Assembly: GCA_016789925.1 (NCBI GenBank)
Contig: JAEUQD010000347.1
Coordinates: 1-35,342 of the forward strand
DNA from: Bryobacterales bacterium
GTDB taxonomy: Bacteria; Acidobacteriota; Terriglobia; Bryobacterales; Bryobacteraceae
DNA: 35,342 nt
Direction of reading: 5' to 3'
Under the pieces are notes generated by a model. The model was not told where the DNA came from. It saw nothing but the letters and a program-made list of their open reading frames with translations, and did no database searches. A program made the translations under genes and the position numbers. This document shows positions 6,106 through 22,830 of the stretch, one piece after another; position 1 is the stretch's first letter, and every line of letters begins with the position of its first letter.

Positions 6106-6114
6106 TGTCTTATG

Positions 6115-7334: not shown

Positions 7335-10070
7335 CTACCCTTGCTGTACGGCGCGCCTTAATCCAGCCTGCACTGGCACCGGGTACCCGACCAAACAGAA
7401 TTGGTCGAGGGCGAAAAGTACGTTCGAGGGACTTCCCTTGCCCTGCGCGATCTCCAACTCCCGTGCCCAAGCCGTTGTCGGATCATTGATACCCACCAAG
7501 AAGCTGCGCTTGGAAATCGGAAATCCTCGCGTCGCCGGATACTCAATAGTCATAGTCGACTTGTTGAGATTCCGAAGGAAGGTGAAAGTGAAGCTCTCGG
7601 TCTTCAGGCAATCGAGAGTTTGAGGCGTCCACGCATTCGCTGGATAGTTGATGAGACGGTTTAGAGCCGTGTCGTTGACGTCAGTCGGGTAGAGCACCTC
7701 GAACCGGCAGTTCGGATGTCTTGCCCGGACGTACTCCATCACGTCCGTCGTGAACTCTCCGATCAAAGCCGGGAGTAGTTGCACCTCGTCAGGAAACATC
7801 CCCGGATCCGTATGGTCGGAGGTGATGATACCCATCGGCCTCCCATAGGCAGCCTCAAACCGCTGCTTTGTATAGTCATCGTAGAACGGCATACCGGAAC
7901 CGGCCTTCGGAAAGTACCACCACTGCACTTCCCCGAACTGCAAATACGGTTGCACTCCAGCTTCGCTCATAACCGTCGCCATATCAGCGTACACTTCTCG
8001 CCAAAAAGCCTTCGATGCGGGCGAGAAGTTCGTCTGTAGTGCAGGGGTGTTCAGCCATGCCGCATCGCCGTTAGGATACCTCTGAGCGATCCCCGCCTCC
8101 CTGGAATCATCTCCATGTTGGAGTTCCATACTGAATGCCGCTGTCACTTCAATTCCATAAGACTTTAGCGCCTCATAGAAGCTACGGCTCCAGTCGCGGC
8201 AGGCTCGGTTGATCCGAGGACTCGCAACCAGATCGGTCAACCATGTCCCATTCACTCCCCCATCCAACCTCGATCCACTGACTACCACGTGGAAGTCACC
8301 TTCACTCGGCGATGCAGCCACGGTCACCATGTTACCCTCGGTTCCCAGCGCCCTCGCAAAAATGGTGAGCCGATTACCCACAGCCTCGGCGCGAATTCCT
8401 GTATAGCCCCTGTTGAACTCAAGCTCGAAAGCCTTGGCGATCGTCTCTGCAGTATCCCCCACTCGATTCAGATGTGTCACCGCAATCTCTGCCGCTTCGC
8501 CCACACGCCCAAGGCGGACTTGTGTGCTTCCGCCGAAGACGGGTACGCCCTCAAAGTCAAGCGTTGCCGACGCGTACACGTTCCCACTGCAAACCAACTC
8601 GTAGTACCACAGCGCTCCGACATAGTGATTCTGCCGTGCTGTAAACCCGAGATCCCGAATGAGCCATGCTGTCCTTTCGGGAGAAATAGCCAGTGAGTGG
8701 TCAGTATCCCAGTCCGTCGCCAGGGTGAGCGTTTCATTACGAGGGAATACCGGTACGCTACTGGACACTATTGCCGCTTCGAGGAAATCGAAATAGAGAA
8801 AACTGCCAGCCGGCCCGGCATGTTCTATCGTCACCGTGTGGGTCCCGGGACCCAGTTCGTCGACGGGCAGCCGGCACAACACGTCTTCCCCTGGAATCAG
8901 CAAGTTCACCGTGCGTGTCGCCGCGGAATCGCACCGAACGCTCACCGCCGCCGCGTTGAATGCACGTCGCGTGCCAAGATATAGCCGGTGCGTCTCGCCG
9001 CATTTGTATGTACACTGTACCTTCGCACCAGGCATCGTCGAGAACCGAATCCGCCCCCCAGAAAAATTCCCCAGCGACTCGGTCCAATTACCGGTGTATA
9101 CCAGTCGTGAGTCATTCTCTTCGATTCGCTGACTCCCCGGTCCAGCCACCACATAACCTGTATTCGTTCCTGATACTTGCCAATTCGTGACCGTAACCGA
9201 GAACTCAGTCCGCATGTACACGCCGGCCTGTAGATCTGCCGAATACGTCCATCGTAACTTTCTTACTTTTTGGGTTGGTACGGTGCGGCCCTCAATATCC
9301 ACAAGCGTCGAAAAGTCAATGTTCACACGCCACTTACTCGGAGATGTTCCTCCGGAGAACTTGGCTGACTGGGGAAACCAGGTCTCCGTCTTGGCACCTG
9401 ATGAGTACCCATACAATCCGATCCGGTTCCCGTTCGCTCCTACCTTACTACCTTCGAGCGTCTGCCCTTCTCCAACGTATTTCAGCTTCAGGACGCGTCC
9501 CTGTCTGCTCGCAACAAGAACAGTCGAAAATGCATTGACGCTGTCAGCGATAGCCTGCACTACAGATTCCGGCGTGTCTCCTCCGAGCACTTGGTAGGTG
9601 TGGTGCTCACTCAGACACGAAATGCCAACATGATCGCCCACTGTCACTGCCCCCAACAACTCCAATTCGGCCTCAGCGGGCGAGTACGATCCTTCCACCG
9701 GAATAGCATGATCTTTGAGAGGCACTCGATAGAATCCTTCAACCCCCTGATCCTCCGCCCAAATTCGAAGATACGGCCAGTCGACGGTGGGGTAAAGATC
9801 CGAATCCACTGAAATACAGTTGACCCGGGTCTCTTCATAACTCAACTGGAGTCCGCTCAAGTCGCCGTCCGGTAAATTTCGAAATGCCGGGTGCTCAATC
9901 ACGTTATCTCGATTCCATTCCACGACCGCCCAGTCAAACTGCTGTCTCCACGTCCCGCTCACAGTAAAGCCGCCAGCACTGCTTCCACTGAAAGCGGCAC
10001 TAGCCGAAGGGCGTTCGAAATAGCATTGCAGATCGCGGTCTGGACGCAATTTCCCGTACATTTGAGCCAT
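7335..10070 (-). CDS. Large tail-associated protein with TIM-barrel-like C-terminal region
   Basis: 911 residues; the last gene of the phage-like operon, 10 bases after the hub gene, with a clear AGGGGAG site before the ATG. The N-terminal two thirds are beta-rich, with jelly-roll-like stretches around residues 330-450 (GTHTVTIEHAG). From about residue 600 the pattern changes to alternating strands and helices: RACRDWSRSFYEALKSYGIEV, then VQPYLQFGEVQWWYFP and FEVLYPTDVND, which looks like a glycosidase-type TIM barrel. GTA and siphovirus tail proteins sometimes carry such barrels (GTA_TIM type). By position it would decorate the tail tip or tail. Catalytic activity is not proven; the Glu in QFGEVQWW is only a candidate. 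Confidence 0.6.
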   Translation of the reverse strand: MAQMYGKLRPDRDLQCYFERPSASAAFSGSSAGGFTVSGTWRQQFDWAVVEWNRDNVIEHPAFRNLPDGDLSGLQLSYEETRVNCISVDSDLYPTVDWPYLRIWAEDQGVEGFYRVPLKDHAIPVEGSYSPAEAELELLGAVTVGDHVGISCLSEHHTYQVLGGDTPESVVQAIADSVNAFSTVLVASRQGRVLKLKYVGEGQTLEGSKVGANGNRIGLYGYSSGAKTETWFPQSAKFSGGTSPSKWRVNIDFSTLVDIEGRTVPTQKVRKLRWTYSADLQAGVYMRTEFSVTVTNWQVSGTNTGYVVAGPGSQRIEENDSRLVYTGNWTESLGNFSGGRIRFSTMPGAKVQCTYKCGETHRLYLGTRRAFNAAAVSVRCDSAATRTVNLLIPGEDVLCRLPVDELGPGTHTVTIEHAGPAGSFLYFDFLEAAIVSSSVPVFPRNETLTLATDWDTDHSLAISPERTAWLIRDLGFTARQNHYVGALWYYELVCSGNVYASATLDFEGVPVFGGSTQVRLGRVGEAAEIAVTHLNRVGDTAETIAKAFELEFNRGYTGIRAEAVGNRLTIFARALGTEGNMVTVAASPSEGDFHVVVSGSRLDGGVNGTWLTDLVASPRINRACRDWSRSFYEALKSYGIEVTAAFSMELQHGDDSREAGIAQRYPNGDAAWLNTPALQTNFSPASKAFWREVYADMATVMSEAGVQPYLQFGEVQWWYFPKAGSGMPFYDDYTKQRFEAAYGRPMGIITSDHTDPGMFPDEVQLLPALIGEFTTDVMEYVRARHPNCRFEVLYPTDVNDTALNRLINYPANAWTPQTLDCLKTESFTFTFLRNLNKSTMTIEYPATRGFPISKRSFLVGINDPTTAWARELEIAQGKGSPSNVLFALDQFCLVGYPVPVQAGLRRAVQQG

Positions 10071-10080
10071 ATTTCTCCCC

Positions 10081-13000
10081 TTACAATCGAACCGTTACCG
10101 TAAGGTCCCGCCCGGGGCTCATGTCCCACCCCTGCGGAACCGAGACTACGTCAAGATTCAGGTGCGCCATCTGCCGCAGTGGACCTAGCCCGAACCCCTG
10201 CACGATATTAGACATCGTCTCGCCTGCGGGAATGTTTAGCAGACAATACTCGTCTCCATCCTGTCGTAGGCGCAGTTCGATGCTGCCACCTGTCGGTGCC
10301 TCGCGGACGACCGCAAAGATGTCTCGCACCGCACGAGTCGACTCGATCACGAGAGGAGGAGTTGCATCGCTATGGATCGCCAAATGTCCTTCGTGTTGAA
10401 TTGTAATTTGGCCGCCAGATAGAGTTCGAATTCCAGAGTCGATATTCAGCGTGAAGTTCGCCCGCCGCGTCTCGCCGTTCCCACGCCCGTTCGTGACGTG
10501 CAAGTCTGCTGCTGCTATGCGAACGTCGGGCAGGTGGATCGGATACATAAAGGACCCACTCGCCGCGCTTCCGAAGAAGTCTTTGACAAACGGTAGAATC
10601 CAAGTCCGGTGCTCGAGCGCATATACCGGTACACCAGCGCCATGATTCGCTGATGACGTCCCATGCGACCCACGGATCACAGTCACCAGTCCTTCACCAA
10701 CTTCGTCCACCTCTACAATCTCTCTTTCGATTTGCACTAACATGCCAGGAGACAACAGGGTCGTATCGCTCAACGTCAAGGCCGTTTCACTGTCGTCGAT
10801 ACTTGCGGCGAGCTCACTTCCAGGCATCCCCGCTAGTTCGTTCCAGAAGAACAGTTTCAACGTTCCGGACGTACCCCCCCGTGTATTTGACAGGTCCTCA
10901 AACCCAACGCCGACCACGTTCAGGGATCCTTGCCCCGCAGGCTGCAGACCGAACACCGGCATCGGGGGAACATCCGCATCGCCGTTCGCGCCCGCGCCAC
11001 CCAGTCGCCAACGCGTAATGTGCGCTAAGTCGTATCCGCTGTCCCGTCCTAGCGCGTTCACCGCACGGCCACAGATTTGAACAGTCGTTCCCGGGCGGTT
11101 CGGCACTCGAAAGCGCAAAGGGCTGCGTGCGCTTCGCGCACCTGTTTGCCACCCCGGCTCTACGATTGAGAACCTGCTGGTACTGTCAGGAACGATACTC
11201 CAGGAACCTTGGATCGACAAAGTAGTCTCGTCGTGGGAAACGATGGCCCGTTCCTGCCCGGCGCCTCTACCCTTCGTGACTCTGACCACGTAGCCGGAAA
11301 ATTCGTCGGGTGTCAGTTGAATCGCGCTGGACCCGACGTATCCGGCACCAAACACCGTTGCAGCGGTCTCAGGATGAACTTCTAGTCGCCACTCAAAAAG
11401 CGCGTGATCGAAGTTCGGGTCTGGAGGACCCTGCAACTCGGTTCCGGAACCCGTGTCGGTGAACACACTCGCGATTGCGAGGGTTGATCCAATTCTGAGC
11501 ACCTCAGATGGGTTCTTTCCTCGATACACATTGAAACTAGCCGTACCTGGAGAGAAACTCAGCCCCTGCAATTGCACCCTGTTTGTGTTTGTTCCAGGCG
11601 GCACCACAGCTCTCACAAGAAACGACAGATCACTCTCCCTTCCGTCTGTGCTGACCGCAGTGATCGCGTAGTAAAGTGTCTGGCCACCCGCGAGGCTGCC
11701 TCCGGTTGAAGCAACCGAAGGCGAGAGTGATAGCAGCGGAATCTCGATGTCGCCGGTAGTCGGCGCACTCGGGACCGCAAAGCCAACCTCCAGTTCTACG
11801 TCTAGACTTCCGTCTCCGTTCTCCAGGATCCTCTCAAGCACGGAGTACCGTGGTGTCAAGTCCTCATCGAGTTCGAGCCCCACGAGCGTTCTTGGCGTTC
11901 CAATCTCTGCGCCAACCCTCCGGCGCGATACTCGGCCGCTGGCCGCTATAGAGGGATTATCTCCGTACCAGTCGTCGCTGTGTACTTGCGCCTCAATCGC
12001 CATCGTGCCTTGATTCAGAGACGGAGAAATGCGAATGACCCGGAATGCCTGTCTTAATAGACCTTCCTTTTGATATGTGATGGTAATTAAGTCCCCAGGC
12101 CGCAGCATAACGCCCTTAACGCTGGTTTCGAACTCGATGTAGAGATTGCCTCGAATCGCCTTGTCGAGTTGCAGTTTCAACACACGAGCCGCCTGGTGAA
12201 AGTTCGCTACGCCAAGCGCTACAGAGGTCACCGCCACCTCCTGGCGTGCTATCGTCACGTCCTCCACATCCACGAGGGACAGGCTGTCCTGTTGGTACTC
12301 ATTGAACACATCCTGAAACTCGATACTCCCTCGGTTCGGGCTCTCGGCTGTACTCCGCGACCACATCCGCACTGACGATTCACCGCTGGCGCGCCGTGCA
12401 ATTCCCGAACCGTAGTCCGACCCGTCACCGAACTCATAGGCAGGCCACCCTCCGGCCATCATCTCTTCGCTGTTGGAGCCCAACGGCTTCAATGGCTGCT
12501 GTGTGTGAAAGGGCCCTTCTACCCGAACCTCCAGCCTACCCGTGACCCCGTAGACTAAATACAAGCGTGACGCGGTTCGAATACCACGAACAAGATCGGC
12601 CACTGAGCGCCGCCGCCGCAGAGCCAGATTGCACTGGAACCGAGGCTGCGCCTGGAGTACTCCGTTCAAGTCCGAAACTTGCAGGGGCTCTTCGCAGAAG
12701 GCCGCTGCGTTGGCAACGCTCGCCAAGTCGATTTCATCCGTCGTCCAGCCGCTTCTACGTAGCAAGTCAAGCAGCACCCAAGCAGGATTGTTGCTGAACA
12801 CCTCACCCGCATATCCCCCATCGTGATGATAAGTTGGCAACTTCTGTCCTTGAAGCAATACCTTCACTTGAGGGATCGCCTTGCCATCACTCACCCTGTT
12901 TGGAACCGATACCGCCAGAAATGCCATGCTGCCGTATGGATCGCCAAGCGGATTCCCCAACGAATCGGTGAACTCCAGATTAAAGCCGCCAGAGCGGCTT

Positions 13001-14007
13001 CCGTTATTCACCAGGTTGTACCACCCCGACGAGGTCATCTGTTCACCGTGAATCCCCGCTGGAATCTCGACTCCATTCACGACGACCCTCAAGACACCTT
13101 CGATCTCTCCCAGCCCCAGCAAGACCTCGAACCGTGTCAAGTTCCCATCATTCCGAGCAAACACGACCGGAGGTTGCACCCACGCTGTCCCGTAAACGAC
13201 CGGAACAAAGTCGTTATACCGAGCCTCGTTCTCACTCACGTTCGATGTCTTGGCCTGTCGTTCTCCGTGTCCTCGCACAAGAACTGATGCCGGTACGAAT
13301 TCAATTCCGCCGAATCTCCTGGTCACGTTCCCGCGGGAATCTTTATCCAACATTCCCCGCTCCTGGCAGGCTGCCCGCGTAAAGTCGCAGCTGCTAAACG
13401 GCACTGTCCCGTTCAGGTTTCCGAGTCCTCCCGGTCTTCCTGCCGAATACCCGCACCGATAAAATGGAGAATACTTGCCTTGCTCACCTCCGTTTACCGC
13501 CTCTGCCTGTTGAGAGTTCGTCGAAGGGAATGTCCACGGGCAGCGGCGCTGAATTCGTACTTCCGGGAGCATGAAGCGCTGAAGGTTGAGACGGCTGTGG
13601 GCACTCAGTCGCACGGTTGATTCTGTCAATTCATCTGGGGGATTCATCAGCCCTTGGAAGATCACGATTTCTTCTGAGGCTGGAACTCCGGCGCGCAAGT
13701 CGAAGAACAGGAACCTGGCAGTCACCTTGGCGCCTTTGAACGACTGCGCGCGAGTCACCTGCGAAATATATGAATCCGCGTTGGCGAGAGTGATCGACAA
13801 ACGAGTCAGCGTGTCAACACCTTCATCGCCTCCCCACTTCATGTCGAAGAGATTGTGTCGTATTACTCTGGGCGCGTACTGTTTGTCCCCAATTGTGACT
13901 TTATGAGTGCTCCAATGTTCTGCGTATCCGTTCGCAAGGACGCAATCGAACGCTACGACTGGCGTTTCCGAGATTTCCTGTTCTTTCAGCTCGCTAATTG
14001 TTCTCAT
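10081..14007 (-). CDS. Tail hub / tip attachment protein (gpL-gpJ-like fusion)
   Basis: 1308 residues, the largest protein of the operon. The N-terminal region (1-230) resembles hub proteins of the gpL/DUF2163 group. It holds four spaced cysteines at about 156, 185, 207 and 214 in RRCPWTFP, YRCGYS and CDFTRAACQERG, followed by RRFGG, a pattern like the iron-sulfur site of lambda gpL. From about 260 comes a gpJ-like tip region (NDFVPVVYGTAWV, then LVRGIRTASRLYLVYGVTGRL). At about 755-850 sits an Ig/FN3-like domain with YYAITAVSTDGRESDLS and FNVYRG. It would close the tail tube and contact the host. Family calls come from pattern memory; position between the distal tail genes and the last tail gene supports them. 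Confidence 0.7.
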   Translation of the reverse strand: MRTISELKEQEISETPVVAFDCVLANGYAEHWSTHKVTIGDKQYAPRVIRHNLFDMKWGGDEGVDTLTRLSITLANADSYISQVTRAQSFKGAKVTARFLFFDLRAGVPASEEIVIFQGLMNPPDELTESTVRLSAHSRLNLQRFMLPEVRIQRRCPWTFPSTNSQQAEAVNGGEQGKYSPFYRCGYSAGRPGGLGNLNGTVPFSSCDFTRAACQERGMLDKDSRGNVTRRFGGIEFVPASVLVRGHGERQAKTSNVSENEARYNDFVPVVYGTAWVQPPVVFARNDGNLTRFEVLLGLGEIEGVLRVVVNGVEIPAGIHGEQMTSSGWYNLVNNGSRSGGFNLEFTDSLGNPLGDPYGSMAFLAVSVPNRVSDGKAIPQVKVLLQGQKLPTYHHDGGYAGEVFSNNPAWVLLDLLRRSGWTTDEIDLASVANAAAFCEEPLQVSDLNGVLQAQPRFQCNLALRRRRSVADLVRGIRTASRLYLVYGVTGRLEVRVEGPFHTQQPLKPLGSNSEEMMAGGWPAYEFGDGSDYGSGIARRASGESSVRMWSRSTAESPNRGSIEFQDVFNEYQQDSLSLVDVEDVTIARQEVAVTSVALGVANFHQAARVLKLQLDKAIRGNLYIEFETSVKGVMLRPGDLITITYQKEGLLRQAFRVIRISPSLNQGTMAIEAQVHSDDWYGDNPSIAASGRVSRRRVGAEIGTPRTLVGLELDEDLTPRYSVLERILENGDGSLDVELEVGFAVPSAPTTGDIEIPLLSLSPSVASTGGSLAGGQTLYYAITAVSTDGRESDLSFLVRAVVPPGTNTNRVQLQGLSFSPGTASFNVYRGKNPSEVLRIGSTLAIASVFTDTGSGTELQGPPDPNFDHALFEWRLEVHPETAATVFGAGYVGSSAIQLTPDEFSGYVVRVTKGRGAGQERAIVSHDETTLSIQGSWSIVPDSTSRFSIVEPGWQTGARSARSPLRFRVPNRPGTTVQICGRAVNALGRDSGYDLAHITRWRLGGAGANGDADVPPMPVFGLQPAGQGSLNVVGVGFEDLSNTRGGTSGTLKLFFWNELAGMPGSELAASIDDSETALTLSDTTLLSPGMLVQIEREIVEVDEVGEGLVTVIRGSHGTSSANHGAGVPVYALEHRTWILPFVKDFFGSAASGSFMYPIHLPDVRIAAADLHVTNGRGNGETRRANFTLNIDSGIRTLSGGQITIQHEGHLAIHSDATPPLVIESTRAVRDIFAVVREAPTGGSIELRLRQDGDEYCLLNIPAGETMSNIVQGFGLGPLRQMAHLNLDVVSVPQGWDMSPGRDLTVTVRL

Positions 14008-14011
14008 CGTC

Positions 14012-14815
14012 TTAGGTCTCCAGTCCGTCCGGAGCGGTAATGCTCACCTTGACTGTGTAATTGTCTACCCCCTCGCAAGTAATCACGAGTGAATCATCCT
14101 TAAACCGTGCTCTTTGATACACTCCTCCGGAGCCTGTGGTCTTCTGATAAGCGGATGGCTCACGTTGTCCTTCCACCTGTAGGCCAACCACGTCGATGGA
14201 TGCACCGGCCGGCAGTTCGATCCCAAACGTTGTCGAAGATCCCTCGCCCAGGCCCCCTCCCGTACTATAAATCCGCCTCCACGCTGGGCCGATCTCACTC
14301 TCCTGCCACAGACTGTCTGTCCCGCTCCTCCACCCCAAGCGAACCTTCCCGGCGGCACTGCCTCTGAAGTAGCCGGAGAAGCAGTAGGTGTAGGACCCAG
14401 GGACGGCTAATGTCTGCTCGACGCTCTGCACAATTTGTCCGCCGTTCACCATTCGCGTCGCCCGCGTGGTTCCCCATAGGTCGCTCACGCCCCCGCTTAG
14501 CAGTAACCCTGCGCCCTTTAGCCACGCCGCATGGCTCAAGTCTTCGCTGTACGAAAGTAGGTTCCCCGCTGGATCGAGAAAGCTAAAATTGAATAGTGAT
14601 CCTTCACTCTCCTCGAACAGGTCTGCAATCCGGCTCGTTTCACGCCCGGTAAGCCCTCGCAGTTCTAGATCCCATTCACACTGTCGCGCTCGGTCGTCTG
14701 CAAACAGGAATCGCCAATTGTCGATCGACTCGTTCACGATCGTACGAGTCTTATGGCGCACCACGACTGGGTATTGAGCGAGCGAACCAGATTCCAATTG
14801 TGGAAAGAACGGCAT
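14012..14815 (-). CDS. Distal tail protein-like, with carbohydrate-binding-like insertion
   Basis: 267 residues. The first 88 residues align by eye with the next gene upstream in the operon: both have a G-x3-QYP opening, a Leu-x-x-LTG-x-E segment and an FSF-x-DP strand. After this point a domain begins with LLSYSEDLSHAAWLKG, a form common at the start of jelly-roll modules on phage tail proteins, and the chain ends with a second beta segment. It probably forms part of the ring at the end of the tail tube, with the insertion as a possible sugar-binding surface. An AGGAGG site lies in the end of the preceding gene, four bases away from overlap, which suggests translational coupling. Confidence 0.6.
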   Translation of the reverse strand: MPFFPQLESGSLAQYPVVVRHKTRTIVNESIDNWRFLFADDRARQCEWDLELRGLTGRETSRIADLFEESEGSLFNFSFLDPAGNLLSYSEDLSHAAWLKGAGLLLSGGVSDLWGTTRATRMVNGGQIVQSVEQTLAVPGSYTYCFSGYFRGSAAGKVRLGWRSGTDSLWQESEIGPAWRRIYSTGGGLGEGSSTTFGIELPAGASIDVVGLQVEGQREPSAYQKTTGSGGVYQRARFKDDSLVITCEGVDNYTVKVSITAPDGLET

Positions 14816-14818
14816 CCC

Positions 14819-15175
14819 CTAACCTCCTGTCTTGTGAATCCACACAACAGCCAACCCTTTTTCTTGCTCCGCCAAAGACCATTGACTGTCATCCTCCCCT
14901 AAGTGACAGCCTTCGTAAGTAACGTCGTCAAATGGGTCTGTGAACGAGAACGTCCTGCTCCTTCCTCCCTGCGCTTTTAAGAACGCTGCAACGCGAACGA
15001 GCTCATCGCCAGTCAGTTTCTCTAGGCGCACCATCCATGCACGGACCACGCCTCCGCACTGCCGAAACCGCTGTTCGCTGCCGTCGACGAATCGAACAGC
15101 GACATTTCTGAAGCGCCTCACTTTCACGGTCGGATATTGCAATACCGCTCCGGTGTTCAGTGTTGGGAAATCCAT
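14819..15175 (-). CDS. Distal tail / minor tail protein (gpM or DUF2460-like)
   Basis: 118 residues. It reads FPTLNTGAVLQYP at the start, LEKLTGDELVRVAAFLKAQ in the middle and RTFSFTDPFDDVTY near the end, which matches the small beta-sandwich proteins that sit between the tube and the hub in siphoviruses. It follows the tape measure by 3 bases and precedes its longer paralogue by 3 bases. The start at 15175 is preceded by GGAG with eight bases of spacing. It appears to be the minimal form of the fold, without the insertion seen in the paralogue. Confidence 0.6.
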   Translation of the reverse strand: MDFPTLNTGAVLQYPTVKVRRFRNVAVRFVDGSEQRFRQCGGVVRAWMVRLEKLTGDELVRVAAFLKAQGGRSRTFSFTDPFDDVTYEGCHLGEDDSQWSLAEQEKGLAVVWIHKTGG

Positions 15176-15178
15176 GGC

Positions 15179-15901
15179 TCACAGCTCCGCCATAACATCG
15201 TTTACCGAGTGCATGTTCAGCATGGCATCACGCACCGCCCTTGCAATATCGTCGCTGTGGTCTAGAAACGAACGGCTATCCATAGTCTGCACCTGCACTG
15301 TAATTTGCGGGATCACGGCAGTAGGTCTGGGTAGAGACCGAACAAGTCCATCCTGACCGTAAGCCACGTTCGAGAAGCCGCTCAAATCTCCCTGGGGCAA
15401 CGCCGCCTCGATTCTTACGGGGGCTGGCTGGACATAGGGAATCACTTCGACGGCTGGCTCCTTCTTGTCCTGACTGAACAATTTCGAAATCCCGCTTATA
15501 GCGGCCCCAAGCCCGCCTGCAAGGTTGAGCCATCCGCTTCCCCCGCCAATGACACTCGACACAGTTCCGGCAACATCACGAAGCTTGGCCGCCGTGCCCT
15601 CAGCCAGCGCCATTGTATTTTGTTCGACCGTTGCCGTTTGTTGTAAAGACGCCGCCTTCATTTCTGCCAGGGCCCGCCCCAATTGCGTCATCTCACCTGT
15701 TAGCGCCTCGGCTGACTTCCCGGCGTAGGACGGGCTGTCCTTGGATTCGGTTTGCGCTTCTACTAACTGCCGGATGCTGTCGGCAGTCGCACGCTCCGAG
15801 GTGAGGCCCCAGAGGCTGCCACTTAACGATTCCCCCAGATCCCCCGCCCCGCGTGTCGACAGAATCATCGCTAGTTGGGTTCGAATATCAGTCTTGTCCA
15901 T
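15179..15901 (-). CDS. Short tape measure protein
   Basis: About 240 residues from the ATG at 15901, which has a GAGGGAG site; an in-frame ATG at 15946 lacks one and lies inside the chaperone frame. The first half is rich in Ala, Gln, Glu and Thr and looks helical. A hydrophobic glycine-rich stretch follows (VSSVIGGGSGWLNLAGGLG, continuing to ISKLF), then a C-terminal part with repeated valine/glutamine strands. Position directly after the frameshifted chaperone pair and before the distal tail genes is where tape measures sit. At about 0.15 nm per residue this gives a tail of about 36 nm, far shorter than most siphovirus tails and close to that of the Rhodobacter GTA. The call rests on position and composition. 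Confidence 0.6.
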   Translation of the reverse strand: MDKTDIRTQLAMILSTRGAGDLGESLSGSLWGLTSERATADSIRQLVEAQTESKDSPSYAGKSAEALTGEMTQLGRALAEMKAASLQQTATVEQNTMALAEGTAAKLRDVAGTVSSVIGGGSGWLNLAGGLGAAISGISKLFSQDKKEPAVEVIPYVQPAPVRIEAALPQGDLSGFSNVAYGQDGLVRSLPRPTAVIPQITVQVQTMDSRSFLDHSDDIARAVRDAMLNMHSVNDVMAEL

Positions 15902-16582
15902 TTGCAAACTCCCTCGCTCTCTCGTTCTCCAGAATCCAAAACGCATCGGCCTTCCGCGCAGTCATCTTCAAAAGGCTGGGCGTGCGGTCTGTCCTCCAGA
16001 TTTCATACTCCTCAAGCCAGGCATAGGATTCGGCGGTAATCATTGACCTCGGACAACGTTCCGCCACAACATTCCGCCTGGCCCACACTACTTTGGGTGG
16101 AGCTGATTCAGACGCTTTCAACCAACCACAGCGTCGGGCCGCTTCCAAGCCGTCTTTACGACACGATTCGCAGTTCCATGCGGCTTGGTTCGCATATTGG
16201 AAGTGGAACGCGATTGCTAGTTTTTTCGCTCTTCCTCCGAGAGGTTGGATTCTTTTCGGATTGCTGCCAGAATCTCGGCTACTAGCGGCTCTGGCCCGCT
16301 TTCGATGAGTGTGTCCGGCCCAGCCTCGCACCCATCAATCGAAAGTCCCTCAATTCCGACCAGCCCCCACTTCAGGTAGATACGATCTATTTCGTGGTGC
16401 GCTATGCTCGCTTCAATTTGGTCTTCGATCCCACTTCCAGCCGCGTGAAACGCTCCCCGAAGTCCGATCTCCCTGAGTCTCTTCGCCAGTTCGATTCGCC
16501 GCCCCAGAGACATGCGCGCCACTTTATACCTCACCCCCGGCAACGTTATCGACTGGTGCTCTGCTTGGCTTGTGTACTCCAT
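15888..16582 (-). CDS. Tail assembly chaperone GT fusion made by -1 frameshift
   Basis: The short chaperone frame stops at 16217-16219, but a second frame without its own start runs through the stop at 15888. A slip of -1 at A AAA AAC (16226 to 16220) joins them. The product would be 121 plus about 110 residues, near 231 in total, continuing LAIAFHFQYANQAAWNCESC and ending in REFANGQD. The added part has cysteine pairs (CESC) and aromatic residues, and the TMP start overlaps its last codons. Lambda G/GT and many siphoviruses make a small and a frameshifted long chaperone in this place to coat the tape measure. The frame is clearly used: it contains no stop and has no start or ribosome site of its own. 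Confidence 0.75.
16217..16582 (-). CDS. Tail assembly chaperone G-like (zero-frame product)
   Basis: 121 residues starting at the ATG at 16582, which carries the leader GGAGGACAACATG. The same 13-base leader precedes the small protein starting at 19373. The protein is mostly helical with a charged tail ending SEEERKN. Position between tail tube and tape measure, and the slippery site at its last two sense codons, identify it as the short member of a G/GT pair. No enzymatic motif is visible. It would bind the tape measure during assembly and be absent from the finished tail. Confidence 0.65.
   Translation of the reverse strand: MEYTSQAEHQSITLPGVRYKVARMSLGRRIELAKRLREIGLRGAFHAAGSGIEDQIEASIAHHEIDRIYLKWGLVGIEGLSIDGCEAGPDTLIESGPEPLVAEILAAIRKESNLSEEERKN
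16220..16238 (-). promoter_or_regulatory. Programmed -1 frameshift site with internal Shine-Dalgarno
   Basis: Reading the minus strand, zero-frame codons are CGA AAA AAC TAG, so a canonical X XXY YYZ heptamer, A AAA AAC, is in the right phase and is followed directly by the stop. A GGAGG at 16238-16234 lies seven bases before it. An internal Shine-Dalgarno near this distance and an adenine-rich heptamer are the stimulators known from dnaX -1 frameshifting. After the slip the next codon is CTA, entering an open frame of 110 codons. Confidence 0.8.
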
Positions 16583-16591
16583 GTTGTCCTC

Positions 16592-17764
16592 CTAAGCGAA
16601 TGCGACCACAACTTCATCGTTTGCGAATCCCTGCGCCCGGCAGTTCCGAAACCGCCACCGTAGTCTCGTCTCTTCGTCATCGAACTCAGGAACCTCCGGA
16701 ACGACTGTCGGCAAGTACAAACCGCATAGTTGCCCTTCCTGCATGCCCAACTGGAGCATCATGCCCACTGGCGAGCGCTGACTCGCCGCCTCATACAACG
16801 CAAGTGTCTCGGGCCTCGTATTACTCACCAGAAGAATGTCCAGTCCCACCTCGCGCTGTCCCGAGATCACGCATGATGCCCGGTTTGTGCCAAAGTCGCG
16901 CCGGCTCAAATCCGTGTTGTTTCTGACACTGAGTTCGGCCTCGACCACCGTATGAAACTGTTCTGGCGTAGCGCCGAACCACGCTTGGCCCATGCTGCCC
17001 GGCACCAACGAGAACCCCACAACATCAATTTCCGGCTCCGCCGGATAACTCGATAAGCCAGCCTGCCCATCCACAAAGCTCCGGCTATCCAGGAGCTCGG
17101 CCGCCTCTCCGACAAACCGGAATTGATGGAAGTCGCCGTTCAGCGATACTCGCATCTCGTCAACCGCTGCGCCAGTGAGCACTCGTTGAACCGCTTCGGC
17201 CGGCTCCCAGTAGTCAAACACACTCACACTAGGAAGCGAGTTTGCAGGCAGATATGTAATTGCTCTACCCGCTGGATCGCCCGGCTGTGGTACCTCGCTC
17301 AACGGAGCGTTCAGAACTACAGTCTGTTCATCGATGACATTTGAGACAAATCTAATTTCCGCACCGAATCGAAGCGCTTGCCCTACTCCAAGCGCATGCG
17401 CCGATGCGAACGTGATTCGATCCCCGCCAGTCGCCATTTCAACGGTTCCGCCGTCAAACGTCACACCAACGCCACCAAGCGCAGCCTGGAAGAGTGGACC
17501 GTAGCACGGTTCCGCTCTTCCCTCTGTCCACCCTGTCATGTATGTCTGAAGATCAAACGTCACCCGCTTCCGCATTCCCGCGGGTGCTCCGATGAACGTT
17601 CTGCCGCCGGTTTTGTCGCGCCGTCTTGGCCGCTCAACCATCTGACGAATCCCGAGTTTCACCGCCGGAATCCGGTTCTCGGACGTTGCCGCACCAGCTT
17701 CTCCAAAGCTCTGCTCAAGGGCGGCGTAGTATCTGTTATCGTTTGAGGATATGTAACAATGCAT
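16592..17764 (-). CDS. Major tail tube protein (putative)
   Basis: 390 residues with a strong GGGGAGGG site before the ATG at 17764. It is beta-rich and opens with MHCYISSNDNRYYAALEQ. Blocks such as GMRKRVTFDLQTYMTGW and the C-terminal LRWRFRNCRAQGFANDE resemble large tube proteins. An inserted beta domain seems present between about residues 90 and 175 (TVEMATGGDRITFASAHALG). The place between terminator and tail chaperones is where the tube gene normally lies. It is longer than minimal tube proteins, which may mean a surface domain. I do not recognise a specific named family. Confidence 0.5.
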   Translation of the reverse strand: MHCYISSNDNRYYAALEQSFGEAGAATSENRIPAVKLGIRQMVERPRRRDKTGGRTFIGAPAGMRKRVTFDLQTYMTGWTEGRAEPCYGPLFQAALGGVGVTFDGGTVEMATGGDRITFASAHALGVGQALRFGAEIRFVSNVIDEQTVVLNAPLSEVPQPGDPAGRAITYLPANSLPSVSVFDYWEPAEAVQRVLTGAAVDEMRVSLNGDFHQFRFVGEAAELLDSRSFVDGQAGLSSYPAEPEIDVVGFSLVPGSMGQAWFGATPEQFHTVVEAELSVRNNTDLSRRDFGTNRASCVISGQREVGLDILLVSNTRPETLALYEAASQRSPVGMMLQLGMQEGQLCGLYLPTVVPEVPEFDDEETRLRWRFRNCRAQGFANDEVVVAFA

Positions 17765-17780
17765 TTTTCCCTCCCCTTTT

Positions 17781-18278
17781 CTAGGCGACGTTTGCTTCTA
17801 ACGACAGCCCCACTTTTGCAGTCTGGGCGAAATTTTTGCCTCCCTTTCCAATCGGCTCAAAGCGCACGTCGTAGCGCCCTGAATAGTAGAGGCCCTCGCT
17901 CAACTCCCCTCGGCTCTGATCTAAAACTCGGAGGACCGCCTCAACACACGCTTGCGTCTCGGCCTCGAGTCTGTCGAGTCGGTCTGCCGAATGGCGAATC
18001 TCAACAACCATGTCAACCTTGCCCGAGAACTGCTGAAATTTCTGCCGCAGTGAATTCTCAACTCTCACACAGTAGACGACAATCTGTGGATACTTCATTC
18101 CTTTGGTACGGTCACTCAGCGCAATCGAATAATTCCCTTTCGATACGCTTATTGGGATATCACTCGACAGCTCACTCAGTCCTGCCTGGCGAAGGGCATT
18201 CAGATGCGCGCCAACACCATCTCGCGAAGTCAACACGTCCCCAAGCACTTCCGTCGCCCGTGCGCTTACCGCTAACAT
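17781..18278 (-). CDS. Tail terminator / completion protein (putative)
   Basis: 165 residues, start at 18278 preceded by AAAGGGGGAAG. The alternating pattern MKYPQIVVYCVRVEN, then VDMVVEIRHS, with a helix DRLEAETQACVEAVLRVLD between, matches the alpha/beta fold of tail terminator and tail completion proteins, which cap the tube at the head-proximal end. Length is typical. Position after the adaptor and before the tube supports this. No catalytic motif is seen. Confidence 0.5.
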   Translation of the reverse strand: MLAVSARATEVLGDVLTSRDGVGAHLNALRQAGLSELSSDIPISVSKGNYSIALSDRTKGMKYPQIVVYCVRVENSLRQKFQQFSGKVDMVVEIRHSADRLDRLEAETQACVEAVLRVLDQSRGELSEGLYYSGRYDVRFEPIGKGGKNFAQTAKVGLSLEANVA

Positions 18279-18290
18279 ACTCTTCCCCCT

Positions 18291-19037
18291 TTAAAACACC
18301 CGCCTCTTTCTCACAAAGTATTCAGGACTCTGCCCTGATGGCGCGCTCGGGCCTGGTACGGTTCCGTCAACTGGAAGAGTCCATGAGCTGCCTGGCGCCA
18401 GAGGAGATTCGTTCTGCCGCATGGTCTGATTCACTGAATCGCCCAGATATACGTCCCATCCGGTACACTCTCCCGGCATCGCGCCCACTTCTACGCTTGG
18501 CACTTCCCCCGGCGCCATTTCAACCACCACCGCGTCACTTGCAGCGCCACTCTGCCCCATCGAATTTCGCCACGCTACCCGTACAGCGTAGACTCCTCCC
18601 GCTCCCGCACCCGGTGCAGCGCTTACTGTAGGCATCGAGGCCTTTATTACGGGATTGTCCACGAGCCCAACACCAAGTTCCATTAATAATTCTGCAGTCT
18701 CCCTCGCCATCTCTTTGAAGCTTTTCCACTTTCCCAGGTAGCGGTCATTCAATTGGCTGCTATAAGCATCGCCGTACACCTCCGCGAGGGTTCGAAGTAC
18801 GTGCCACCGCCTGAGTCCGGGTGTCACGACTACACGCCTCAAGTCGCGGTCTCCACCGAATCCCAGGTTCCCTGTGCGCAAAAGAAACACAGATAGTTCG
18901 AGTTCAATGGCCTGCCGCGCTACGTCGAGCTTCGCCGTCACTGAGATATTTTCGTTTCTCGCCGTCTCGAGAATAGAGCTGTCGACGGCTTGTAAGTCTT
19001 CAATTGTTGAGGCCGGTCCGTCAATGAGCAGAGCCAT
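18291..19037 (-). CDS. Head-tail adaptor-like protein with C-terminal Ig/FN3-like domain
   Basis: 248 residues with AGGAGG before the ATG at 19037. The first 130 residues are helical (TAKLDVARQAIELELSVFLL, VVTPGLRRWHVLRTLAEVYGD), as in connector proteins that bind the portal. Near residue 145 a glycine/proline linker leads to a beta domain with YAVRVAWRNSMGQSGAASD and a tryptophan in GWDVYLGD. This domain has the same plan as the Ig-like domain in the hub protein, so two particle proteins may share a decoration module. The adaptor role is inferred from position. Confidence 0.45.
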   Translation of the reverse strand: MALLIDGPASTIEDLQAVDSSILETARNENISVTAKLDVARQAIELELSVFLLRTGNLGFGGDRDLRRVVVTPGLRRWHVLRTLAEVYGDAYSSQLNDRYLGKWKSFKEMARETAELLMELGVGLVDNPVIKASMPTVSAAPGAGAGGVYAVRVAWRNSMGQSGAASDAVVVEMAPGEVPSVEVGAMPGECTGWDVYLGDSVNQTMRQNESPLAPGSSWTLPVDGTVPGPSAPSGQSPEYFVRKRRVF

Positions 19038-19052
19038 AACTGTGCCTACCTC

Positions 19053-19373
19053 CTAGTCCTTCAGCAGTGACTTCCGCAACGCTTCAAGACCACCCTGCGA
19101 GAACACGTCCAGGGCCATCCTCTTTTGCTGCTCCTCCGCAGTTTGCCGAACGTGCTTGGCCCGCAACTCTGCATAGTACTCTTGAGCCTGTAGAGGGCTC
19201 GCAAGAGTCGCCTTGTCCTCGGCAATTAGCCGCGCAGCCGCGTCTTTTGTGACTTCTGTCAGAATTCCGGCACACCCGCCATCGTCTGTCTTATTACTGA
19301 CGACAACGGCAAACTCGCCCTCAATCGTCCGCGCGATTTCTCGAATATTGTTGTAATATTCCCTCAGGTTCAT
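19053..19373 (-). CDS. Small protein between coat and adaptor, function unknown
   Basis: 106 residues from the ATG at 19373, chosen because GGAGGACAACATG gives an ideal site; the ATG at 19394 sits at the foot of a hairpin and lacks good spacing. The protein starts MNLREYYNNIREIARTIEGE, has a central VVVSNKTDDGGCAGILTEV segment and a long helix rich in Ala, Gln and Glu. I do not recognise it. Genes in this slot often encode head decoration or head completion proteins, but nothing visible decides this. Confidence 0.65.
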   Translation of the reverse strand: MNLREYYNNIREIARTIEGEFAVVVSNKTDDGGCAGILTEVTKDAAARLIAEDKATLASPLQAQEYYAELRAKHVRQTAEEQQKRMALDVFSQGGLEALRKSLLKD

Positions 19374-19394
19374 GTTGTCCTCCACAAATTTCAT

Positions 19395-19424
19395 GGGGCG
19401 TGCCGCGAATCCTCCGCACGCCCC
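19395..19424 (-). promoter_or_regulatory. Intercistronic hairpin after the coat gene
   Basis: A perfect 8-base-pair GC-rich stem (GGGGCGTG with CACGCCCC) encloses a 14-base loop in the gap between coat stop and the next gene. No U-run follows on the minus strand, so it is not a classical terminator. It could stabilise the coat message or lower transcription or translation of downstream genes. The loop contains GGAGG. Confidence 0.5.
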
Positions 19425-19458
19425 GGTTGTCTTCTCTCTCCCGTCGGTGCGAAGACCG

Positions 19459-20370
19459 CTAGCTCTTCACCTGAACACCATGGTTGTTACGCAATACGCC
19501 GGCGCCGTACAGAACATCCACCGTGAATTGTTGCGCCAACGTGTTCGGCTGGTAGCTCATCACTACGCGCATCCCGAAGTTACCGAGTTCAGCGTATTCG
19601 GCGATGGCGCCGGTCCCCGGCAACGGCTGCGGCAGCCGCCTCACCACCAACCCCAGGGCGTTTCGCGCAAAGGCCATGTTGTTCGTCGTCACAGGGCCAC
19701 TCCCTGTCTTCGGCACAAACTGCGACCGGAACACAAAGAAGTCCTTAATCTTTCCAACACTTCCTTCCACCAGCGCCCGCAGACCCGCCTCACCCGCCGT
19801 TTGAAACTCGCTGAAGCGCGGAATCTGCCGCATCTGTGAATACGCTTCACCGCTGACAATCAGATATTTCGGAGAGCTCGCGGGAACCTTCGCGTTGAAC
19901 AACGCCGTCTCCGCCGCATCAATCGCGGCCTCGGTGAGTGCGCTCCCGGCAGTACCGACTGGCGCATTCGACGTAAACTGCGAGTACAGTCCCAGCAGGT
20001 CAGCCTCGATCTTCTCTGCCAGCGCCGCCACTGCGGGCTCCATATACAGCCGAAGAAGATCCGGCACTGCCAGAATTTTGGTCACATCCGGAATCTGAAA
20101 CGTTGCTTCGGCATGCGTGTTCAGCGCAATCTGAGCATTCCCCAGTGACGGGTTCTGTGTAATAACAGATCCGCCATCCGAGATATTGTTCGCCACCAGC
20201 GTCGGAGGGATGGGCACGTTCACCATATCGCCGGCCTGCGCCAGCACTGGCTCAAAGTCCCGATTCACCAGATTACCCATGACAAGGTTCCCCATCAGGG
20301 CCGGCAGCGCGTCGGCTGCGACCAGCTTTACGATCGCTTGTGCGACATTTGAAGATGTAATTGAAGGCAT
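19459..20370 (-). CDS. Major capsid protein, P22 coat-like
   Basis: 303 residues with an AGGAAAAAGAG leader. It begins MPSITSSNVAQAIVKLVAAD and continues with FEPVLAQAGDMVNVPIPP and TFQIPDVTKILAVPDLLRLY, the pattern of coat proteins of the P22 gene 5-like group, which take the HK97 fold. The middle and C-terminal parts (PKYLIVSGEAYSQMRQIPRF, then GLVVRRLPQPLPGTG and VDVLYGAGVLRNNHGV) fit the same family. The gene follows a scaffold gene and no prohead protease is present, consistent with P22-like assembly without cleavage. It would form the icosahedral shell. Confidence 0.8.
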   Translation of the reverse strand: MPSITSSNVAQAIVKLVAADALPALMGNLVMGNLVNRDFEPVLAQAGDMVNVPIPPTLVANNISDGGSVITQNPSLGNAQIALNTHAEATFQIPDVTKILAVPDLLRLYMEPAVAALAEKIEADLLGLYSQFTSNAPVGTAGSALTEAAIDAAETALFNAKVPASSPKYLIVSGEAYSQMRQIPRFSEFQTAGEAGLRALVEGSVGKIKDFFVFRSQFVPKTGSGPVTTNNMAFARNALGLVVRRLPQPLPGTGAIAEYAELGNFGMRVVMSYQPNTLAQQFTVDVLYGAGVLRNNHGVQVKS

Positions 20371-20406
20371 TCTCTTTTTCCTCTTTCTTTCTCAATCGGT
20401 CTTTCT

Positions 20407-20979
20407 CTAATTTCCTGGCTGCAGAGCGATCCGGGCTATCTCCTTGCGGATCTGCTCAAGTTCTCGAGGGTCCATCCCCGGCTTGATTCGGTCTAGGTCA
20501 AATGAACCGGATGGCCCTGTGGGTCGATTCGCCAGTGTTGTTCCCGAACCACCTGTCATCCGCGCCGGTAGAAGTTCTGGGTTCTCATGGACAAATTTCG
20601 TCAGGTAGTCCCGCAAGTCCACCTGACTTTGTCCATCACGAGCGACGAACCGGCCGTCCTCGGCGCGTCCGACGTCGTCTTTGACGGCGCGATACGCCAG
20701 GTCGACCTTCACCACACCCAGTCGCTGCAGTTCCGTCCGTATCGTCGAGGTTCGCTCGGCCTCCTCGGCACGCTCTTTGGAGCGACGGTTTTCATCCGCC
20801 AATTCGTTCATGCGGCGTTCCAACGTTTCCCGCTTTCTGCGTTCTTCCTCCAGTTCCGCCTTGTAGGCCGGCTCGCTCTTGCTTTTCTGGAGTTCCATGT
20901 ATTCCGAAAGAACCTCCGCGATAACTGATCGCATCGGCTTCCCTTCGTTCTCGATCTGGTTTGTCTCCTCAGTAGTCAT
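20407..20979 (-). CDS. Capsid scaffold protein (putative)
   Basis: 190 residues, strongly charged. Residues from about 40 to 100 form a long predicted coiled coil (AYKAELEEERRKRETLERRM, then ELADENRRSKERAEEAERTS). The C-terminal third has a glycine/threonine linker (GGSGTTLANRPTGPSG) and a basic tail helix. This layout, just before the coat gene, is that of phage scaffolding proteins that guide shell assembly. No protease motif is seen. A GGGAGG lies 14 bases before the ATG, a somewhat long spacing. Confidence 0.7.
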   Translation of the reverse strand: MTTEETNQIENEGKPMRSVIAEVLSEYMELQKSKSEPAYKAELEEERRKRETLERRMNELADENRRSKERAEEAERTSTIRTELQRLGVVKVDLAYRAVKDDVGRAEDGRFVARDGQSQVDLRDYLTKFVHENPELLPARMTGGSGTTLANRPTGPSGSFDLDRIKPGMDPRELEQIRKEIARIALQPGN

Positions 20980-21009
20980 ACTCTTGCTATTGACCTCCCT
21001 TGGTCTCCT

Positions 21010-22401
21010 CTATGTGTCTGTGGCATCGCTTGCGCTGTCGATCTCTCCAGCTATCCTGTCTTTCACCTCCTGGCGAACGTCGCTTAAATACTTGAATGCG
21101 ACTTTCTTGTAAACTTGCTGCTTCAATGTCGGCGAGGCGATGCCAAGAGACAGTAGGTGCCTGGCGTCCTCCAGTTCTCCACTGAAATCGGCAATATCAA
21201 ACTCTTCTAGACCTGATACATCGATTGAAATGTCGTCTTGCCGCGCTGCGATGATTGCCCTCAGCACTCGCTTCAGACTGTCCTTCACGGCGTCTCCAAA
21301 TGCCCGAAGCACCTCCTGGGTGATGGCATAGTCTCTCAGCTTGCTCAGTCCCGACTGAACCATCGGCTCTCCAGCGAGGTGCTGAAGATATGACACACGA
21401 TATATCTCGTGTTGAAGACGCTTCAGATTGTCTGCTGCGATTTGGTAAACATTGCCGGCTGGCTCGGTCCATCCGAACTTGTCCTGTGGACCCAGTTGTA
21501 TGTAGTAGGAGTCGCCGATGATTTGGCTCCACTCCCGCTCCGAGTAAATAACTGGCTGCGCGAATAGTCCCTGACTCAGCGCCCAACCTAAGGCGTTCGA
21601 CTTATTGAAGTGCTCTAGCTGGAGCAGCGCGCCGCGGTTCATCAGCCAAAGCCCTTCCGGCATCCGCAAATCAAAAAGCGGCACTTGCCCTAGGTGGGCA
21701 AGACCGTGCGTTCCGCTGTCAATAAGATGCGTGTCGGCCTCCCCCTCGAGCTGTTGGTACACTTCGAAGCGTTCACGGTCAAAATGTGTCCACTGGGTCA
21801 CACGCGACCATTCCGCGGTGCGAAAGCTCCGCTTTCGCAGTTGACTGTTCTTTAGTACGACCCAGTCGAAGTCCCCTCTATCGTCCACGCTCCAATTGAT
21901 CAGCATCTCTGGAGGACAGTGGCTGACGTACGCGCTTGATGTCCCCATCTCGTTCTCTTCTGCACGACTTTGCGGTTGCTTCGAAGCGCGTGGGAAGTCC
22001 ACTAGTATGTAACTGGCTCCACACACTAGGCTGTCAAGCATGGCCTGTCGGTAGAAGTCGGTGAGTGAGGTCCCCCTTCGATCGCAGTCCTCCGAAAACT
22101 TTGCTACAAACGATTTAGCTCCCGGGTCTTTTCCCTCGACTATCAACAATGGTTCCCGCCGGAATAGCGTCGCAACATACCAGTCGACGATGGAGCCGAT
22201 GTAATTCTCATAGAACACCCTCGCCAACCGCTCCCCGTAAACTTCCAGCGGCTCTTTCTGACGCCGCAGAAGGTACTCTGTCGAGTGCGCTCGGAATTGT
22301 TCGCCGCCGACGTATAAGTCGCGGTACTGCCTCAGCAGTCTTTTGCGCACGGCGTAATCGGGATGTTCTGAATCGATCTCATGGGCTATGTTTTTCAGCA
22401 T
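21010..22401 (-). CDS. Portal protein (DUF4055/SPP1 gp6-like)
   Basis: 463 residues, the first gene of the operon, with GGAG five bases before ATG. Motifs fit portal proteins of the DUF4055 type: RQYRDLYVGGEQFRAHSTEY, then FYENYIGSIVDWYVATLFRR, then SLVCGASYILVDFPRA, and a long helical C-terminal part (LRDYAITQEVLRAFGDAVKD). Twelve copies would form the DNA channel at one capsid vertex. Terminase genes normally lie directly upstream; here the upstream sequence is an AT-rich gap and then a divergent alcohol dehydrogenase. The gene is full length and has no internal stop. Confidence 0.8.
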   Translation of the reverse strand: MLKNIAHEIDSEHPDYAVRKRLLRQYRDLYVGGEQFRAHSTEYLLRRQKEPLEVYGERLARVFYENYIGSIVDWYVATLFRREPLLIVEGKDPGAKSFVAKFSEDCDRRGTSLTDFYRQAMLDSLVCGASYILVDFPRASKQPQSRAEENEMGTSSAYVSHCPPEMLINWSVDDRGDFDWVVLKNSQLRKRSFRTAEWSRVTQWTHFDRERFEVYQQLEGEADTHLIDSGTHGLAHLGQVPLFDLRMPEGLWLMNRGALLQLEHFNKSNALGWALSQGLFAQPVIYSEREWSQIIGDSYYIQLGPQDKFGWTEPAGNVYQIAADNLKRLQHEIYRVSYLQHLAGEPMVQSGLSKLRDYAITQEVLRAFGDAVKDSLKRVLRAIIAARQDDISIDVSGLEEFDIADFSGELEDARHLLSLGIASPTLKQQVYKKVAFKYLSDVRQEVKDRIAGEIDSASDATDT

Positions 22402-22830
22402 TTGATCTCCAAGTTGGCGTTAGCCGTCGGCGTTGCTCGCTCTGCAAACCTCACCGCCGCACTCAACGTACCGCCCGATTTTCCGAGTGAGATGATTGAT
22501 TTTTCCTATATTGTTGAAAAATAAGCTGAAAATAAATTTCAATTAGTTGTGAACGAGTTTTTTTTGACGAAGCGAACAAATAGCGTATGATTCTTCTGCT
22601 TCCTGTAAAACAAAGATTTAAAAGCGCTTAGATAATCTCTTGACACCATCGCTTGTGAAGCTGTTCCTTCGGCTTCGTTGGCATTCCACACGCCGTCCTT
22701 GCCGCCGGTCACAGGACTTCCGCGGTGTTTCTTCCCGGTCCTCACCTTCGCTATCCTTTTGGGTGATCATGCGCCTCAATCTCTTCCAAATCGGTCTGTG
22801 CGCCATCCGGTTCGCGACATGAGAGATCTG
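22402..22830. other. AT-rich divergent intergenic region
   Basis: No convincing gene. The stretch 22490-22625 is clearly AT-rich compared with both sides. It holds a plus-strand promoter (listed separately) and a small inverted repeat, TGAAA-5-TTTCA, at 22527-22541, which could be an operator. On the minus strand it must contain the promoter of the particle operon, but I see only weak matches there. The remainder up to 22830 is GC-rich and forms a long leader for the dehydrogenase. Confidence 0.6.
22564..22591 (+). promoter_or_regulatory. Sigma-70-like promoter pointing to the alcohol dehydrogenase
   Basis: TTGACG (22564-22569), 16 bases, then TATGAT (22586-22591): five of six matches in each box. 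The transcript would have a leader of about 230 bases before the dehydrogenase start. It lies back to back with the start of the particle operon. Confidence 0.55.

Follow-up and report, generated by a model that had tools for sequence, protein, structure and literature searches.

Three independent lineages of gene transfer agents (GTAs), from alphaproteobacteria and spirochaetes, have been formally classified (PMC9662315). RcGTA has a short tape measure protein of about 216 residues (PMC7296036) and a TerS that is reported to lack the N-terminal DNA-binding domain (PMC6854486). BhGTA (VSH-1, Brachygtaviriformidae) is encoded by a structural cluster of 16.3 kb, with terL located outside the cluster (PMC9662315). 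We found no acidobacterial GTA in the open-access literature; in one Acidobacteria genome paper the term occurs, but only in a general sense. Here, we analyzed a window of 35,342 nucleotides (nt), contig JAEUQD010000347.1 of the Bryobacteraceae genome GCA_016789925.1 (G000; G labels are genomes and L labels are loci or contigs compared), which carries an operon of phage-type head and tail genes on its minus strand at positions 7335–22401. We propose that this operon is probably the structural part of a vertically inherited domesticated prophage, most likely a GTA, and that the window's genus has lost the terminase genes TerS and TerL. The best reading of the compared genes is that the cluster would represent a new, independent GTA-type lineage in Bryobacteraceae.

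The distribution of the cluster was assessed across genomes. In the first search, a portal homologue was present in 36 of 61 genomes, nearly always as a single copy. When 399 genomes of the class were surveyed for the coat protein, it was detected in 84 of 101 Bryobacteraceae species and in 3 of about 298 others, with one marginal match excluded. The family figure is a lower bound because G020 and G025 showed no portal match and nevertheless hold TerS and TerL (in G025, near a contig end). Named contigs were mostly labelled as Bryobacterales, Bryobacteraceae or Acidobacteria metagenome-assembled genomes, and known phages were distant, the top portal match being 28% identical.

Next to distribution, the surroundings and the phylogeny of the cluster were compared. 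Up to 40 kb was fetched around 33 copies, 2 of them in related prophages. Gene order was identical in all genera that were read to the cluster end, with the last gene missing in some, and protein lengths were constant among relatives. The cluster was bordered by housekeeping genes of the chromosome (symporter, Tex, peptidase M24, O-antigen ligase), and a Pfam search of the flanks of three relatives revealed no integrase, replication or lysis genes beside the cluster. As the original prediction of domestication and vertical inheritance at an argD/EEP locus had it, the cluster is immediately followed by EEP and argD in G000, G001, G024 and G032, four genomes from 3 genera that together make up one rpoB clade; G002 and G021 have the flanks on both sides in common. 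An rpoB tree of 27 genomes was then set against a tree of five cluster proteins. The two trees held 14 of 24 splits in common (shuffled mean 0.24, maximum 2), no conflict was found among splits supported at ≥95, and the Mantel r was 0.74, whereas permutations reached at most 0.57. The outcomes that the original prediction had named as refuting it did not occur, since the locus is present in more than one strain and the frames of almost all relatives are open. The dN/dS ratio, a check raised in the same prediction, was low in most genes of most close pairs (0.04–0.3 in 3 of the 4 pairs computed), with coat the lowest.

Taken from these comparisons, the cluster appears as a domesticated prophage inherited vertically in Bryobacteraceae. 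It shows what is expected of a GTA, namely vertical inheritance, intact structural genes under purifying selection, and a lack of genes for autonomous replication or integration beside it, in the window and in the flanks of three relatives. A recent prophage deletion at one site was rejected, since the cluster is family-wide and tracks rpoB. A satellite or mobile element was also rejected owing to the lack of autonomy genes in the flanks examined and of an att repeat; direct matches between the two flanks did not exceed 13 nt and shuffled sequences reached 14, in agreement with the absence of att-like repeats stated in the original prediction. Likewise, the scanned ORFs (open reading frames) of the window included no TerL, integrase, repressor, replication or lysis genes, as had been claimed.

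The original prediction had taken the absence of packaging genes as a property of the particle, which the relatives do not support. Upstream DNA could be read in 129 relatives, and 127 of these have TerL directly before the portal gene. Directly before TerL, and overlapping it, is a small gene of ~80–90 amino acids (aa) with a conserved core, which we take as a putative TerS from its position, size and motif. In two related prophages, the TerS slot holds proteins of 197–203 aa whose N-terminal half matches a TerS family, and the short TerS-slot protein of the family cluster lacks this N-terminal part of prophage TerS. As a putative TerS, it would agree with the reported RcGTA TerS, in which the N-terminal DNA-binding domain is missing (PMC6854486). 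The ancestral order is reconstructed from the loci as TerS–TerL–portal–scaffold–coat–neck–tail tube–chaperones–short tape measure–tip. In such a cluster, we propose that the host would switch the operon on and that a head with a short tail would assemble. A TerS without the sequence-reading domain would let TerL load arbitrary host DNA, which the particle would deliver to relatives; particle production, DNA content and transfer are predictions of this model. The earlier claim of a candidate GTA therefore holds for the family cluster, which is a good candidate, whereas the copy in the window descends from it without a terminase and is unable to package DNA unaided.

The upstream end of the window copy contains two features that bear on the missing terminase.

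22402–22503, minus strand: leader between the upstream element and the portal gene, the site of TerS and TerL in relatives, with no trace of either gene.
22504–22535, minus strand: promoter-like element of 32 nt, conserved in Bryobacteraceae, 102 nt before the portal gene (before TerS in relatives).

Whole-genome profile searches of G000 (88% complete) and G001 (97% complete) detected neither TerL nor the TerS-slot gene, with the sole exception of the TerL of prophage C157 in G001 (E 1.5e-72), which is only about 31–34% identical to the cluster TerLs. Generic TerL-family matches elsewhere in both genomes fell, by profile, outside the cluster TerL lineage. We considered that TerL was merely overlooked in the window's genus and rejected this because no TerL of the cluster lineage emerged from these searches, including that of the rest of G000, where the original prediction had proposed to look. 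In the cluster tree, G000 and G001 group with the IMG/VR contigs L165 and L166, which apparently lack TerL; because these four fall together, one terminase loss is suggested. The claim of loss rests on two genomes and two contigs, and the contigs, being short, are weaker evidence of a missing TerL. These comparisons indicate that both terminase genes were lost by deletion in the window's genus and that their absence is a derived state, not that of the family.

The remainder of the operon is retained in this genus. The 32-nt element was found at 95 non-redundant loci with 22 bits, compared with 8–9 in shuffled controls, and it is kept 102–106 nt before the portal gene in G000 and G001. Because G001 served as the seed of the motif search, G000 gives the less biased view, and its site scores higher than any other match across the two strands of the window. 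Each of the 13 frames is open in G000 and in G001. Synonymous sites are saturated between G000 and G001; therefore, we used relative divergence instead of dS tests. The coat proteins of G000 and G001 are 93% identical, compared with 86% in a pair of TerL-bearing genomes that are about equally distant in rpoB.

Because TerS and TerL are deleted, the window copy cannot package DNA alone. We consider that it cannot be a self-sufficient GTA and that it may rely on a terminase from elsewhere, form particles free of DNA, or be slowly decaying. A changed job for the particle is possible, if doubtful: in the window's genus, DNA-free head–tail particles could act by adsorption, killing or signalling to relatives, like a tailocin with a head. 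The absence of TerS and TerL in G000, G001 and apparently L165 and L166, beside 13 open genes, would fit such a role, as would a coat that is more conserved than in the TerL-bearing pair, tip genes that diverge faster, and the retained upstream element and frameshift site. However, portal and scaffold are also kept, which suggests that DNA still enters the head; other terminases occur in both genomes, and no sign of killing or signalling activity was seen. That last terminase observation bears on packaging in trans, by the terminase of another prophage or a relocated gene, which we regard as doubtful to the same degree. G001 does contain a related prophage with TerL, both genomes have further TerL-family matches, and the terL of the spirochaete GTA sits outside its structural cluster (PMC9662315). 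Nevertheless, a TerL of the cluster lineage is found elsewhere in neither genome, G000 has no such prophage TerL, and the G001 prophage TerL is distant from those of the cluster. Another reading, that the window copy became inactive when the terminase was lost and has been decaying slowly since, is unlikely, given that no stop or frameshift is present in the 13 genes of G000 or G001 despite saturated synonymous sites, that the coat is highly conserved and that the frameshift heptamer is kept; the accelerated divergence seen in the tape measure and tip genes and the broken TerL of G031, both described below, speak for decay. Finally, the whole element could be an ordinary temperate phage lineage or satellite with a narrow host range. 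True prophages related to it exist in Bryobacteraceae (G001:C157 and G033:C144), and IMG/VR lists hundreds of the clusters as viruses, but the cluster is single copy, its tree agrees with rpoB, and the flanks examined have no integrase, replication or lysis gene beside it; we consider this very improbable.

Several observations weigh against a vertically inherited domesticated prophage that functions as a GTA. Divergence of the tape measure and tip genes has been more rapid in the window's genus than in other genera. Decay does occur: in G031 (L053/L054), TerL is a C-terminal remnant and the TerS-slot gene and other cluster genes persist, apparently a second, independent terminase loss. L116, which has no TerL before the portal gene, is a case separate from both the window's genus and G031. 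Constraint is weaker in the pair L118–L131 (dN/dS 0.15–0.63), and one gene of the pair L108–L118 reaches 0.9. Three genomes outside Bryobacteraceae (G044, G057 and G065) hold the coat gene at 73–78% identity, through transfer or misbinning, and occasional transfer is possible. An hhalign profile comparison of the short TerS-slot protein with prophage TerS was not significant. The hosts with names are nearly all draft metagenome-assembled genomes. No lysis genes were identified in the window ORFs, and no genome-wide search was made for them; known GTAs can have lysis genes away from the cluster. The evidence is computational. With these points included, we retain the domesticated prophage, most likely a GTA, as the explanation of the operon. 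Our wider proposal, an independent family-wide acidobacterial GTA lineage together with one genus that kept the full head–tail particle after losing its motor and whose particle is now DNA-free or served by a borrowed motor, is offered tentatively.

The genes of the operon were named using PHROG and Pfam profile matches, AlphaFold models with Foldseek, and synteny with relatives. As originally predicted, 13 collinear minus-strand ORFs, every one of them open, run from portal to tail tip at 7335–22401. They form a nearly complete head–tail set of portal, scaffold, P22-like coat, two or three neck proteins, tube, chaperones, tape measure and tip. The flank is ordinary chromosomal DNA, as had been stated. 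Outside the chaperone and tape measure region, the features are as follows.

21010–22401, minus strand: portal protein, 463 aa (phrog_145, E 2e-46), with a homologue 54–71% identical in most genera of Bryobacteraceae.
20407–20979, minus strand: head scaffold, 190 aa (phrog_206, a weak match at E 9e-4), syntenic in relatives.
19459–20370, minus strand: major coat protein, P22-coat-like, 303 aa (phrog_283, E 1e-40; PF11651), 75–93% identical across genera of Bryobacteraceae.
19053–19394, minus strand: small conserved head-region protein, 113 aa, syntenic in relatives, with no PHROG or Pfam family match.
18291–19037, minus strand: protein of 248 aa with a helical N-terminal half and a beta C-terminal half (AlphaFold pLDDT 92; no significant Foldseek match in the PDB), a putative head–tail adaptor by position.
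17781–18278, minus strand: protein of 165 aa, syntenic and constant in length in relatives, a putative tail terminator or neck protein by position.
16592–17764, minus strand: tail tube (major tail) protein, 390 aa, by AlphaFold and Foldseek (P74-26 tube 8ed0, E 9e-14; T5 tube 9iny, E 2e-12).
14819–15175, minus strand: candidate distal tail protein, DUF2460, 118 aa (PF09343, E 2e-6, slightly short of the curated cut-off).
14012–14815, minus strand: tail tip-associated protein, 267 aa, of no family, syntenic in relatives.
10081–14007, minus strand: central tail tip protein, J or hub like, 1308 aa (phrog_31, E 2e-21; PF13550).
7335–10070, minus strand: TIM-barrel tail protein (NCTSP family), 911 aa (PF23845, E 3e-20), with no match in several genera.
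4846–7311, minus strand: chromosomal flank outside the particle set, with EEP and argD-like genes by Pfam, in an order that G001, G024 and G032 share downstream of the cluster.

The last gene, encoding the TIM-barrel protein, was unmatched at the cluster end in G013, G026, G029, G030 and G034, in which the J gene is complete. The EEP-family gene (6115–7311) has the same orientation as the last tail gene and begins 24 nt past it; 4 genomes retain the gene at this place, and it may be co-transcribed with the cluster.

The predicted intergenic gaps of mostly 3–36 nt were confirmed, except for one of 64 nt and an apparent hole at 15947–16216. The latter is the overlooked −1 frame extension of the chaperone gene, which together with the tape measure gene occupies the following positions.

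16217–16582, minus strand: G-like part of the tail assembly chaperone, 121 aa, conserved, between tube and tape measure, with a slippery heptamer at its end.
16220–16226, minus strand: A_AAA_AAC −1 frameshift heptamer immediately before the stop codon, conserved across loci.
15888–16219, minus strand: T-like −1 frame extension, with frame and protein conserved in relatives.
15179–15901, minus strand: short tape measure protein, about 240 aa (phrog_3779 in relatives), with a conserved C-terminal motif; the ORF can start at 15946.

The heptamer was identical in phase and place in 26 of the 30 loci examined. Slippage on it (16226–16220) would yield a predicted G–T fusion of 231 aa with its end at 15888. 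The tape-measure family phrog_3779 was matched by 13 of 24 relatives of the 15179–15946 protein; translation of this protein probably begins at the invariant Met16 (about 15901) instead of at 15946. The tape measure has a median of 213 aa in the family cluster versus 944 aa in the related prophage G001:C157, and the 944-aa prophage protein matches tape-measure families.

If the proposed reading is true, a further GTA lineage exists in a dominant soil phylum, in most sampled species of one family, and GTA-driven gene exchange is a candidate force in soil bacteria. The cluster would also provide an independent case in which two features of domestication seem to have arisen again, namely a TerS that lacks its N-terminal domain and a tape measure of reduced length. 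The genus without a terminase is a natural experiment on the purpose of a particle deprived of its packaging motor. In addition, at least 590 IMG/VR entries per query (coat, terminase) encode genes of the Bryobacteraceae cluster, and the contigs L165–L244 and L283–L362 are short, none exceeding 28 kb. Many of the soil 'viruses' listed in IMG/VR represent this vertically inherited cluster of the chromosome and are likely miscounted as viruses.

Compared with known systems, the window differs from a tailocin, a tail without head genes, in that portal, scaffold and coat are present and conserved. It also differs from an active prophage, as no integrase, att repeats, regulation, replication or lysis genes were found in it. 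The prophages G001:C157 (L057, L058) and G033:C144 (L059) resemble the cluster in coat (73–74% identical), portal (33–35%) and gene order, but carry TerL and the longer TerS; G001:C157 additionally encodes the long tape measure, SSB, an exonuclease, a DNA methylase and a polymerase clamp. BaGTA (Bartogtaviriformidae) likewise consists of particle genes that were independently domesticated and kept vertically, in another host and with another gene set. BhGTA is a precedent for a structural cluster without terminase; however, the Bryobacteraceae ancestor had TerL inside the cluster, it was lost in the window's genus, and no TerL of this lineage was found elsewhere in G000 or G001. The Bryobacteraceae cluster differs from RcGTA in its P22-like coat and its P74-26/T5-like tube, belongs to another phylum and is predicted to transfer DNA, and the window copy also lacks a terminase. 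Comparison of tip, coat, tape measure and TerL with PDB sequences yielded no RcGTA chain, and DUF2460 is shared with Rhodogtaviriformidae only as a wide family. RcGTA and the Rhodogtaviriformidae are nevertheless similar in organization, as a vertically inherited head–tail cluster of about 15 kb that co-diverges with its host, and the RcGTA tape measure of about 216 residues compares with a median of 213 in the Bryobacteraceae cluster.

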